From assembly GCA_951812755.1 (NCBI GenBank), contig OX638329.1, forward strand, positions 2,775,339 to 2,839,338: DNA of 64,000 nucleotides, given 5' to 3'. The position numbers and the translations under genes are program-made. Under the pieces are notes generated by a model. It was not told the DNA's origin. It did not search any database and was given only the letters and a program-made list of their open reading frames with translations. The DNA comes from an uncultured Latescibacterota bacterium (GTDB lineage Bacteria; Latescibacterota; UBA2968). This document shows, piece after piece, positions 31,159-38,201 of this stretch. The stretch's first letter is position 1. Each line of letters begins with the position of its first letter.

Positions 31159-32097
31159 ATGGCACAACAGCCGCTCGATGGCGGGACGGGGGTGAGGTGT
31201 GTCATGTGCGAGGCGATTATTTCAGAAGAACGCCTCCGGGCTGTTCCCTATACGCGCCTGTGCGTGACGTGTAAGGACAAAGTAGAAAGGGGGAGAATTA
31301 ATTTCAAATCTCATTTGATGGGTACCGAGGTTCAGGCAGAAGAACCCGAGGTGAAACCCATCGAGGTTCGTGAAGACCGATTGGTAATTGGCGCGTGGTC
31401 AACTGGATTTATGGAATTGGCCTCGCAGAGCAGCCAGATACGCGATCTGCTCCGTGAGGGAAAAAAAGAAGATGCCAGGGCCCTGGTGCAGACTATGACG
31501 GTTGAAACGCAGGCCGCGCTCGTTGTTTTGGATGAAGATCCAGAGACTGTGTTGTCTATAACGGGTATGGATGAAGATGGCAATCCGGGCTATTCGACAG
31601 ATGTGGTGGCGCATTTGCCTACAGAGATGTTGACGGGGCTGATTGATTATGACCCGGAGCGGGAGGGTTTTAACACGCATTTGGTACGCGCTATGACGCC
31701 GGGTACTTTTCGGCGCACTGTGGAAGACACGTTAGAGCCAATGGACAGTGCCGGGGCCAGGTCAAAAGTATCGTTTGAATGGCTCAGGGCACTATCTACA
31801 CTGGGGGATGCGAATAAGTGTGCTGAATTGCTGAATAGTGTGGATCCCGGGTTGCTCGAAGAAGCTCTGATTCCTTATGTGAAGGACATGCGCATGAATG
31901 ATATCGTGGGGGCTGCGGGCGCGCAGGTTTACCGGCACCAACTCTTTTCCGAAGGCGCTGCTGTGGGTGAAATGCCGAGTACGATAATAGAGGATCCCGT
32001 TGTCGGAGGTGTTCTGGATGCACTTTTCGATGCGGATGCCGATTTGATGCGGTCCGTCATTCGCGGGGCGTGGGAGAGGAGGGATGATGAAGTGTGA
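31159..32097 (+). CDS. Unknown protein with N-terminal DksA/TraR-like C4 zinc finger
   Basis: 312 residues. The start at 31159 has GGAGGG 5 bases upstream; longer frames cover the promoter. Near the N-terminus VRCVMCEAIISEERLRAVPY followed by TRLCVTCKDKVERG gives two CxxC pairs with the spacing of DksA/TraR-type zinc fingers, a class known to bind RNA polymerase. Unlike DksA, the finger is N-terminal and no preceding coiled coil exists. The remaining 270 residues are acidic and mostly helical (for example DPETVLSITGMDEDGNPGY); I do not recognise them. It is the first gene of the cluster with the sigma factor and fused polymerase. Its stop lies inside a heptamer array. Confidence 0.7.
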   Translation: MAQQPLDGGTGVRCVMCEAIISEERLRAVPYTRLCVTCKDKVERGRINFKSHLMGTEVQAEEPEVKPIEVREDRLVIGAWSTGFMELASQSSQIRDLLREGKKEDARALVQTMTVETQAALVVLDEDPETVLSITGMDEDGNPGYSTDVVAHLPTEMLTGLIDYDPEREGFNTHLVRAMTPGTFRRTVEDTLEPMDSAGARSKVSFEWLRALSTLGDANKCAELLNSVDPGLLEEALIPYVKDMRMNDIVGAAGAQVYRHQLFSEGAAVGEMPSTIIEDPVVGGVLDALFDADADLMRSVIRGAWERRDDEV

Positions 32098-32202
32098 AGT
32101 GAGAAGGGTGAAGGGTGAAAAGATCCACTAAGAGCACGAAGTTACACGAAGGGGGCTGATGGGCTGGGGGACTGACAACTGACAACTGACTACTGACAAC
32201 GG
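32086..32202. repeat. Heptanucleotide array between cluster genes
   Basis: Starts across the stop codon of the zinc-finger gene with GATGAAG, TGTGAAG, TGAGAAG, GGTGAAG, GGTGAAA. It then passes through an ACTAAG/ACGAAG word string and G-rich units and ends with ACTGACA, ACTGACA, ACTGACT, ACTGACA directly before the GGAG ribosome site of the next gene. It fills the whole 112-base gap. Confidence 0.8.
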
Positions 32203-32209
32203 AGTGCTT

Positions 32210-35011: not shown

Positions 35012-35114
35012 AGACAGATTCCAAAATGACACCAGGCAGAAAGTAGCTAAGATCAAGGGAGTTCTGGATTAAGCCAGACTCGTAACTCACTAAAAATGAG
35101 ACAGGAGAAATTTG

Positions 35115-38100
35115 ATGAGTCTTTCAGTGAAGGCGACGTGGCATAAAATTTCGTGGGATGCGTTTGTTCAAAAGGGGTTGCCCGAATTGTTGGCAGATCG
35201 TGTGTCGCTGGCGGGTTATCGGGTGGTGTCGGTGGATGAATATACCTGTGAATTGCATCTCGCGGTTCAGGGCGGTCAAGAGGTTGTGTACAAAGATATC
35301 CCCCAGCCCGACGATTGGGGGCGGTTTAAGGTGGATGGCTTTTTTCGAACAGTAGTTCCCGCGCCGACTGATGTGGATTTGGCGCGTGCTGAAATTCGGT
35401 GTGTGGGCGAGCAAGTGCGCGATTATATTGCCGAGCGGTTGAAAAATATGCCCGAGATGTTGGAAGAAGCAGTTGAAACTTGGATGCCGTTGGGAGATTG
35501 GATTCACACATTTTTTACGGAAGAACCCACATCGCACTATTTGCAGGCGACCAATTTGCAGGATATGTACGTTCATTTGCGGCGGGTGACGTTGATCCCA
35601 ATTATCGGTGAGGCCGATGAGGGGGTAGAAAATTACTATCATCCGTCGCACGATGGGTGCGTGTGTCCTTATTCCACGCCTGAAGGACCGAATCTCGCGC
35701 GGATTTTAGAGGTGGCTCAGGGAGCGACTATTCGCGATGGCAAGCTGGTGATTGAAGACGATGCGCCTGAAAAGCGGCTGGGCATAGGTGCTTCGGTGGT
35801 TCCGTTTTTGGAACACAATGATACCAATCGCGTTTTGATGGGTGTGAATATGATGCGGCAGTGGATAGGCGCGCCGGGTCCCGATATGCATCGTGATGAA
35901 CAAGGTGTGTGGCACACATATCACGCGCAATATGACGGCAAGGTACTGGAGTCGGAACCCGCGCTGGTGCAAACGGGATGTGAACCGAGTGATCCGCATT
36001 TTTGGACGGGGTACAATTTGCTGACCGCGTTTATGGCGTGGAATGGGGATGCCCACGAAGATGCAGTTGTGATGAGCGAATCGGCTGCGAATCGGATGAT
36101 GTTGCCCAATCGCGTTGCGCTGGGCGATAAACTGAGCAATCGACACGGTTTTAAGGGTGTGGTGTCGCGCATTGTGAAAGATGAAGAGATGCCCAAATTG
36201 TCGGATGGCACGCCTGTGGAGCTTATTGTGAGTGTGTGTGGTTTGCCGTCGCGGTTGAATATTGGACAGGTGCGCGAAGCGGTGGCCGGGCGCATTGCAA
36301 AGGCCGAGGGAGAGCCGGTTATTATTCCCGTACTCAATGCGCCCAAAGACGATGAGATACGCACTCGTTTGAGTGCTTTAGGGCTGGCAGAAGATGGCAT
36401 GGATACCCTGACGTTAAATGGGGAAACGCTGCCGCGTCGCACCACTGTGGGGTGGGTGTATTGGGGGCGCACGTTGCATCTGGCTGCAGATAAAATTCAC
36501 ATGGGTGTAAAGCCGGGTCAACGCGACCAAGGGGTGGGTGAGACAGAGTTTTTGGCGTTGCGAGAAGTGGGTGCTTTTGGTGTGATTGGCGATTTGTTCA
36601 ATACGTGCGCGGTGGATCGAGATGATGCCAATACTCTGGCAGACCGCGTCATTGAAGGACCTGTTAGTCCCACTGCGCCGTCTCCTCAGTTTGATGATCT
36701 GGTCGGGCATTTGTCAAAAGGTGGGGTTGCCGTTGAACAGGATGAACATGGTGCAGCGTTTTTGTTGAAACGCGGTGGGGATGTCGCGCTTGCGCGTCCG
36801 GTTCCGCATCCGTGGCTACCGGGACATTCGTTGACACATGTGAGCGGGAGAGATGTGCCCCGCGCATTGCGAGAGGCCAACGACCGGTTGAGTGAGATGA
36901 TTGCCAATGGCGCGCCAGATATATTGGTGGATCGCGCGATTGAAACGCTGTCTGAACGGGTTCGCGCATTTTGCGAGTTGTCGCGTTTGCAATTTCAGGC
37001 GCGTGCGTTGTTCAGTGGGCGTTCGGTGGCTGCGCCTGCGCCCGAATTGAGATACGATCAGGTCGGTGTGCCCGAGGAAATGGCGTGGACGTTGTTTGGG
37101 CCATTTGCAGCGCGAGAGGTGGGGGCTGAAGAAGTGGATAGGCGGTCGAGAAAAGCAGAGGAAGCTCTGGATGCGGCTATGGCCGGGTTATGGACTGTGG
37201 TGCTTCGCAATCCCGCGTTTTCGCCAATGGCTTTTGTGGCGTGTCGTCCGGTGCGCGTGGAAGGTGAGGCGATTCGCGTGTGTGTGGCGATTTGCAAGAT
37301 GATGAATTTGGATTTTGATGGCGATCAGGTGGCGATTTTTGTGCCGGTGACTGAAGAAGGCCAGTGGTCGGCTGAAGCGCATCTGTCGGCAGTGGCGCAT
37401 CTGAATCGGGATCCGGGGCTGATTGCACGGGAGAAGGTACACCCGATGCACGATGCACTGTTTGGCCTGGCGTATCTGAGTATGACGGACGAGGGGTTGC
37501 AGGAGATTGCGTCGATTGTCGGCGATGAGGTTGAGCGAAAGGGGTTGTTTGTCGATAAGCATCAGGTGATGGGCTGGATGGCGGATGCGATGGCGCGCGA
37601 TGGTGCGAAGGCTGCACTGGATCTGGCCGCGCGATTGTGGGATAGAGGGTTTGATGCCGCGCGTAAGACAGGGGCTTCGATGAGTGCGTTTATCGGTTCG
37701 TCTCTCGATTGGCCCGATCCGCCAGAAGGGGATGATCCAGATGTCTGGCGCGATTATCCCGATGAGGTGTCGGCTGTGTTGGCGCGGTTTAGCGGATATG
37801 ATGATGATGAACTCGGGATTCCCGCGCTTTTGGTGGAATGCGGTGCGCGTGCCAATTGGCAGCAGGTCAGGCTTTACGTAGCTCCCCAGGGCGTGACGCG
37901 GAATGATCAGGGTGGGTTTACGCCCCTGAAGCACGGTTTTCGAGAAGGGCTGACGCCAGAGGAGCTTTTTGCGCGGGCGATTGGTGCGCGCTGGGGACTG
38001 GCAAATGCGCTGGCGGAGATGCTGGCGATTCAGAGCGATCTGGAAACGCAGAGTGCGCCCGGTGGGTATGGTGTTTTGGCGCGGGCGCGCAGGTCGGAAA

Positions 38101-38201
38101 CGCCGGGTGTGGTATTTGCCCGCGCAGCGCAAAAGGGCGAGCGCGATCCGCTGACTGATGAGTATAGCCGGTTATTTGTGGGGATGGAGGTTGAAGTGTG
38201 A
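35115..38201 (+). CDS. Single-chain RNA polymerase-like protein (fused minimal beta and beta-prime)
   Basis: 1028 residues. The beta-like half has [13 protein letters not shown] (69-), [18 protein letters not shown] (176-193), [18 protein letters not shown] (229-246), [19 protein letters not shown] (301-319, with the Glu-Asp pair) and [16 protein letters not shown] (337-352), which keeps both catalytic lysines (339, 347). The beta-prime-like half has a clamp-helix-like coil (about 583-620), [19 protein letters not shown] (633-651, switch 2), Arg698/Pro700 equivalents of the NRAP motif, and [12 protein letters not shown], whose Asp733, 735 and 737 would hold the catalytic magnesium. An F-loop and bridge helix follow ([26 protein letters not shown]). 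It ends 50-60 residues later, with no recognisable trigger loop. The start at 35115 has GGAG 7-8 bases upstream. It probably makes RNA with the nearby sigma factor. Confidence 0.92.

Follow-up and report, generated by a model that had tools for sequence, protein, structure and literature searches.

A candidate self-activating gene pair for a second, reduced RNA polymerase and its own sigma factor in Latescibacterota

Introduction

Can a bacterium keep, besides its ordinary RNA polymerase, a second and smaller one with a sigma factor of its own? According to a review of the field, one RNA polymerase transcribes all genes of a bacterium (PMC7598289). The question is raised by a stretch of 64,000 nucleotides from an uncultured Latescibacterota bacterium (assembly GCA_951812755.1, contig OX638329.1, positions 2,775,339 to 2,839,338, forward strand), called the window below. 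The window lies in a genome assembled as a single contig of 6.53 Mb (G000), whose close named relatives are 'Candidatus Latescibacterota' metagenome assemblies. A first-pass annotation made from the letters alone had described five plus-strand genes as one dedicated transcription module, and all five are present, at 31159 (gene A), 32210 (gene B), 33241, 33866 (gene D) and 35115. Two of them are the subject of this work:

33241..33834, plus strand: putative dedicated sigma factor of the extracytoplasmic function (ECF) type, 197 amino acids, TTG start (Sigma70_r2 4.4e-18, r4_2 6.4e-15)
35115..38201, plus strand: reduced single-chain RNA polymerase, 1028 amino acids, with a beta core ahead of a beta-prime core (AlphaFold2 model; E. 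coli RpoB and RpoC matched by profile)

The home genome has ordinary rpoB and rpoC genes elsewhere, at 3148-3153 kb, encoding 1269 and 1368 residues, and the product of 35115-38201 is therefore an additional polymerase. We lean towards the view that sigma factor and polymerase form a two-gene, self-activating cassette that encodes a second RNA polymerase, reduced in size, and the sigma factor dedicated to it.

Distribution and joint inheritance

Homologues of the small polymerase were found in 22 of 64 Latescibacterota genomes and in 17 of 291 Armatimonadota genomes, with identities of 36-93%. Profile searches of their neighbourhoods placed the sigma gene immediately upstream and on the same strand at every polymerase locus with upstream sequence. 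Counted by genome, a linked sigma gene accompanies the polymerase in 17/17 Armatimonadota and 21/22 Latescibacterota; in the exception (G052), the contig begins inside the polymerase gene. Polymerase homologues regularly lacking this sigma gene, which the first-pass annotation had named as the finding that would speak against a module, were thus looked for and not found. The sigma stop codon and the polymerase start codon overlap by 1 or 4 bases at 18 of the 26 measured loci, and the gap is below 45 bases at 22 of them. At most loci, the two genes are translationally coupled. Large gaps occur twice, in the window (gene D) and at L034 (an ABC transporter gene). No third recurring gene family was found in the neighbourhoods of the sigma-polymerase loci.

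The reverse census in the home phylum gave a sigma gene without a detected polymerase in three genomes only (G037, G058 and G043). In the first two, the contig ends inside the polymerase gene and the N-terminus of the polymerase is still visible. In G043, the sigma copy is truncated (L132 4799-5167) with no polymerase downstream, which fits joint loss. The unlinked sigma hits in Armatimonadota are weaker, general ECF factors; the best of them scored 135.8 bits and overlapped only the weakest linked ones (about 133).

The distance matrices of the sigma factor and the polymerase are strongly correlated (r = 0.94; none of 2000 permutations reached this value), and all Latescibacterota stand on one side of a branch in the polymerase tree (support 82/97). 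The pair was therefore inherited jointly. Both genes are under purifying selection, as the ratio of nonsynonymous to synonymous substitution rates (dN/dS) is 0.14-0.18 for the polymerase and 0.07-0.11 for the sigma factor. This selection, the occurrence in a second phylum and the presence of family members in single-contig genomes (G000, G038, G049 and G050) argue that the polymerase gene is no artefact.

Sigma factor, promoter and transcription unit

The sigma factor has the ECF architecture, with region 2, a short linker, region 4 and no further regions. A profile of its family gave 334 bits for the sigma of the window and 104 for the next ECF factor of the home genome. The linker motif PxWM was considered as a signature of the family and rejected: it is found in 16/28 module sigmas and in 0/8 other ECF factors of the home genome, and it is absent in the deep Armatimonadota. 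Anti-sigma genes beside ECF sigma genes are typical, not universal. Here, as first described, none was found; no anti-sigma family was detected among the neighbours.

Three regulatory elements define the transcription unit:

33161..33188, plus strand: intrinsic terminator closing the upstream unit of genes A and B, 12-pair stem and T run
33193..33218, plus strand: ECF-type promoter of the sigma-polymerase unit, tGAACC-N13-CGGTGTC (-35 GAACC, -10 CGGTGTC)
38220..38252, plus strand: intrinsic terminator directly 3' of the polymerase gene, 14-pair stem and T run

The first terminator is conserved in the genus and strong (-18 kcal/mol, z -3.5 against shuffles), and its T run stops just before the sigma promoter. 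With a promoter just past a strong terminator and a second terminator after the polymerase gene, the transcription unit comprises the sigma gene, gene D where it is present, and the polymerase gene. The start of the sigma gene was set to TTG 33241 because the upstream GTG at 33214 falls within the -10 element.

The promoter is conserved far beyond the home genus. A GAAC-N-GTC promoter precedes the sigma start at 26/26 non-redundant loci from two phyla, against 82/2722 control windows taken from the same loci; the strict form GAAC-N16-GTGTC was found at 20/26 loci and in 0/2722 controls. The spacing from GAAC to GTC is constant, being one base shorter in two loci, and the promoter block recurs in alignments made for the home genus and for a second family of its class. 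Ten genomes of the home genus each have a single perfect copy of the promoter, always before this sigma gene; the contig of the eleventh (G030) begins inside the sigma gene. As for autoregulated ECF loci, a promoter of the GAAC/GTC type lies before the sigma gene and the regulated gene is in the operon. Unlike in those loci, the co-transcribed partner is a polymerase and not an anti-sigma factor. On the simplest reading of this arrangement, the sigma activates the operon in which it is encoded. By reading the lone tGAACC-N13-CGGTGTC promoter before its own gene, it would switch on and amplify the expression of the cassette.

Architecture of the small polymerase

The polymerase gene starts with ATG at 35115, preceded by AGGAG. 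Its product matches PF00562 (RpoB-type, 1.9e-39) and PF00623 (RpoC-type, 5.6e-15). Profile comparison with E. coli gave 1.3e-84 for RpoB and 3.4e-56 for RpoC, with collinear blocks. The following parts were located:

36093..36125, plus strand: junction without the beta flap, residues 327-337 (profile positions 296 to 305 cover 780 to 1035 of the genome's own RpoB)
36861..36971, plus strand: beta-prime clamp helices, residues 583-619, aligned to E. coli beta-prime 266-309
37305..37328, plus strand: catalytic loop NLDFDGDQ (NADFDGDQ-type), residues 731-738, with the three Asp in 26/27 homologues
37956..38051, plus strand: bridge helix, residues 948-979, aligned to 670-795 of the genome's own RpoC (helix 948-979 in the model)

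The retained E. coli beta blocks are about 118-147 (weak), 473-580, 652-705, 791-821 and 1054-1342, followed by beta-prime 266-516, 564-639 and 715-798. There was no profile match to beta 822-1053, beta-prime 1-257 or beta-prime 799-1407. Alignment to the home genome's own RpoB and RpoC gave the same pattern of retained and lost parts; 780-1035 of its RpoB are reduced to about nine profile positions. The small polymerase has about 37% of the combined length of E. coli beta and beta-prime. It has lost the beta lobe and also the whole beta flap, the beta-prime N-terminal zinc/clamp head, the jaw and the trigger loop, the last four being canonical features of the bacterial core. Indeed, the protein ends about 50 residues past the bridge helix (the trigger loop of the genome's own RpoC is at position 914). 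At residues 1011-1024 (38145-38186), the C-terminus carries a near-invariant DPLTDxxSRLFVGL, which bears a faint likeness to the trigger-loop motif LTxRTFHIGG.

The AlphaFold2 model built with 28 homologues has a predicted local distance difference test (pLDDT) of 88.7 and a predicted template-modelling score (pTM) of 0.87. The depth of the alignment mattered, as 13 sequences gave a pLDDT of 67. A structure search with the model matched residues 1-545 to RpoB/Rpb2 chains (Z about 30). As the search ranked beta chains, the structural support applies to residues 1-545 only, and the beta-prime half rests on the profile matches. The clamp region is modelled as two helices, at residues 583-597 and 602-619.

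The residues expected of a catalyst are kept in nearly all of the family. PF00562 was found in 28/28 members and PF00623 in 27/28, and the Pfam domains across the 28 homologues are Rpb2_3, Rpb2_6 and Rpb1_2 and no others. The counterparts of beta E813 and D814 are conserved in 27/28 each, that of K1073 in 27/28, and that of K1065 is conserved as well. The F-loop is conserved among the homologues of both phyla. The reduced chain keeps both double-psi barrels, including the catalytic aspartates, as well as the bridge helix and the clamp helices.

These residues also bear on an alternative role for the protein. As a catalytically idle decoy restraining the sigma, it would itself be the missing anti-sigma factor, which would agree with the lack of a nearby anti-sigma gene and with the retention of the sigma-docking helices in a protein that has lost several polymerase domains. 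A decoy would, however, have no need of the Asp triad, the barrel lysines, the bridge helix and the F-loop, which are conserved in two phyla, and we consider this explanation highly improbable. An active DNA-dependent RNA polymerase working without alpha or a trigger loop appears the better analogy: in a chain so reduced, polymerisation without these parts would be expected, as in YonO of the Bacillus prophage SPbeta, a processive single-chain RNA polymerase without a recognisable trigger loop (PMC5467207).

Does the sigma factor guide the small polymerase?

In normal enzymes, the clamp helices are the docking site for sigma region 2. In the small polymerase, the counterparts of E. coli N276, R278 and P288 are kept, and those of R275 and E295 are Ala in 24/28 and 21/28 homologues, respectively, being mostly Ala in both phyla. 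We take R275 and E295, from mutagenesis of the E. coli enzyme, to be important for sigma70 binding. The two changes would be as expected for a specialised sigma partner. Most likely, the partner sigma binds these helices and so guides the small polymerase to promoters, although this is the least certain step of the proposed mechanism. Since other sigma-docking parts were lost, the clamp helices may have been kept because they are used.

Several observations weigh against this reading. The main argument is the absence of the flap. Normal holoenzymes use the beta flap to hold sigma region 4. With the flap missing and the -35 element still strictly conserved, the ordinary polymerase together with this sigma may be what reads the promoter. 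Furthermore, near matches to the promoter are overall no commoner in the genomes than matches to reversed-pattern controls, and no further gene carrying a conserved promoter copy was found, which leaves the sigma without detected further targets. The catalytic loop is not invariant either: one polymerase homologue (L051, 8531-11653) reads EVYFDGDQ, with Tyr at the first of the catalytic Asp positions, the sole case among 27, and one genus has Glu at the Asn position.

Hence, it is conceivable that the sigma serves the normal RNA polymerase only, as a switch for the small polymerase, which would then work independently of sigma (at nicks, ends or single strands, or by copying RNA). The strict -35 conservation despite the missing flap would be explained, as would the single perfect promoter per genome, which makes the operon the sole predicted target of the sigma. 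The sigma also retains the usual region 2.2 motif, and a regulator and its target would likewise show joint inheritance. Against this stand the clamp helices, which normally dock sigma and are not only retained but specifically altered. We regard such a pure switch as rather unlikely, though as a serious competitor, and continue to favour a sigma factor that acts with the small polymerase. As the flap that would anchor sigma region 4 is missing, that polymerase would perhaps recognise promoters mainly through the -10 element.

Neighbouring genes

The remaining three genes of the five and the promoter of the first two are as follows:

31060..31088, plus strand: sigma70-like promoter of the A-B unit, TTGACA-N17-TAAATT, kept in seven home-genus genomes
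31159..32097, plus strand: gene A, N-terminal DksA/TraR-type C4 zinc finger (PF01258) and an uncharacterised domain; not core
32210..33136, plus strand: gene B, partner of A, no assigned family; not core
33866..35011, plus strand: gene D, variable insert between sigma and polymerase, weakly similar to tetratricopeptide repeats; not core

The DksA/TraR-like C4 finger noticed early in the product of gene A was confirmed (PF01258, E 6.6e-10), with C14, C17, C35 and C38 invariant in close homologues. Against the NCBIfam DksA models, the protein scored far below the cut-off, and the finger was unmatched in more distant homologues. The products of 32210 and 33866 gave no Pfam or NCBIfam family above the cut-off.

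Could these genes encode further subunits or regulators of the polymerase, as the idea of a five-gene module implies? Genes A and B do lie upstream of the pair in the home genus and in G024 and G026, and gene A is present somewhere in 20/22 polymerase-bearing genomes. This explanation is nevertheless largely refuted. The A-B unit has its own promoter and terminator. Gene A was found in 32/64 and gene B in 33/64 genomes of the home phylum, and the pair occurs in ten genomes without the polymerase (G018, G020-G023, G025, G027, G028, G055 and G059). In family f4, A and B lie elsewhere on the chromosome than sigma and polymerase, and A gives no zinc-finger match there; G038 has the two genes at separate places of its chromosome, both distant from the sigma gene. 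Genes A and B are near none of the remaining polymerase loci. Gene D was found only in the window and in L039, that is, in two genomes. Genes A, B and D are therefore neighbours and not core parts. The dedicated transcription module of the first-pass annotation thus holds for sigma and polymerase and not for all five genes. Its suggestion that the product of 32210 or 33866 replaces alpha found no support, the former belonging to a separate unit and the latter being limited to two genomes.

Some side observations concern the surroundings. The A-B pair is conserved across the class (e.g., G050:C1:267288-268912), with the zinc finger of A matched only in families f1 and f2. The slot between sigma and polymerase (33834-35115) varies within one genus, being empty (L036, L037, L054 and L055), occupied by gene D, or taken up by a gene for an ABC transporter (L034 and L058). 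Downstream of the cassette (38345-41490), a BlaI-type repressor gene is followed by one for a BlaR1-like membrane peptidase whose C-terminal part carries several TonB-like repeats; the peptidase has 919 amino acids in the window and 584-594 in L034, L058 and L055. Upstream, a TnpB/OrfB-like transposon protein, recognised by eye, is encoded on the minus strand at 29462-30580, between nadC and gene A; it is not there in L055. An MjaI-type restriction endonuclease gene (27984-28568; PF09568, 1.4e-63) adjoins nadC, with a methyltransferase-like gene just upstream in L055.

Relation to known systems

Single-chain two-barrel polymerases and ECF sigma factors are already known, separately. The small polymerase shares with YonO-type enzymes the single-chain build (at most about 1000 residues), the pair of double-psi barrels, the Asp triad and the lack of a recognisable trigger loop (PMC5467207). 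YonO is a prophage protein that has few residues in common with cellular RNA polymerase (PMC5467207). Unlike YonO, which was compared by its description, the small polymerase is clearly derived from RpoB and RpoC (profile matches of 1e-84 and 3e-56 to E. coli), comes with a paired sigma gene and keeps the clamp helices and the bridge helix. In the profile search, the closest matches were bacterial RpoB and RpoC of the canonical type.

The non-virion RNA polymerases of phages AR9 and phiKZ offer another parallel, as each is a second, reduced enzyme of the beta/beta-prime type whose promoter specificity comes from a dedicated subunit, the sigma-like gp226/gp68 (PMC9209446, PMC7598289); in AR9 there is already a case of a reduced enzyme served by a sigma-like subunit of its own (PMC9209446). 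Those enzymes have several subunits, are encoded by phages and use very diverged sigma relatives, whereas here there is one chain, encoded on the chromosome, and a sigma of the ordinary ECF type. The gp64 and gp96 proteins of P23-45 are likewise single-chain two-barrel RNA polymerases (PMC10770324). Both are encoded by a phage and show extremely little similarity to the enzymes of cells, and no sigma partner was found in the parts of PMC10770324 consulted. The natural beta-beta-prime fusions of Wolinella and Adlerbacteria are also one polypeptide (PMC11515920), but they are the cell's own full-length enzyme, and the small polymerase is an extra one.

A phage origin was considered and rejected, as searches of phages and plasmids gave ordinary beta/beta-prime or distant polymerases, none of them over more than 80% of the query. 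Three viral contigs (L041, L092 and L093) carry distant polymerases and gave no sigma-profile hit. In L041, a protein of 2040 residues (4571-10693) has beta-like and beta-prime-like regions in one chain; it has no adjoining sigma-profile hit. As for a link to defence, PADLOC found nothing for the polymerase. A limited search of the open-access literature brought up no account of a bacterial RNA polymerase that is encoded on the chromosome together with a sigma gene of its own, or of a sigma-linked single-chain enzyme.

Significance

If the holoenzyme were shown, there would be a real chance of a new kind of system. More tentatively, it may be proposed that some bacteria possess two DNA-dependent RNA polymerases. 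Next to the universal enzyme of five subunits, there would be a single-chain miniature whose private sigma initiates its own synthesis, and the two overlapping genes would form an orthogonal and bistable arrangement. If true, a second enzyme that is encoded on the chromosome, passed on vertically and equipped with its own sigma would be an exception to the one-polymerase view. One could then test what parts of the protein sigma-directed initiation can do without, and what advantage a private polymerase brings to its host. Moreover, a single-chain polymerase of 1028 residues, a sigma of 197 residues and a known promoter would be useful as an orthogonal expression system.

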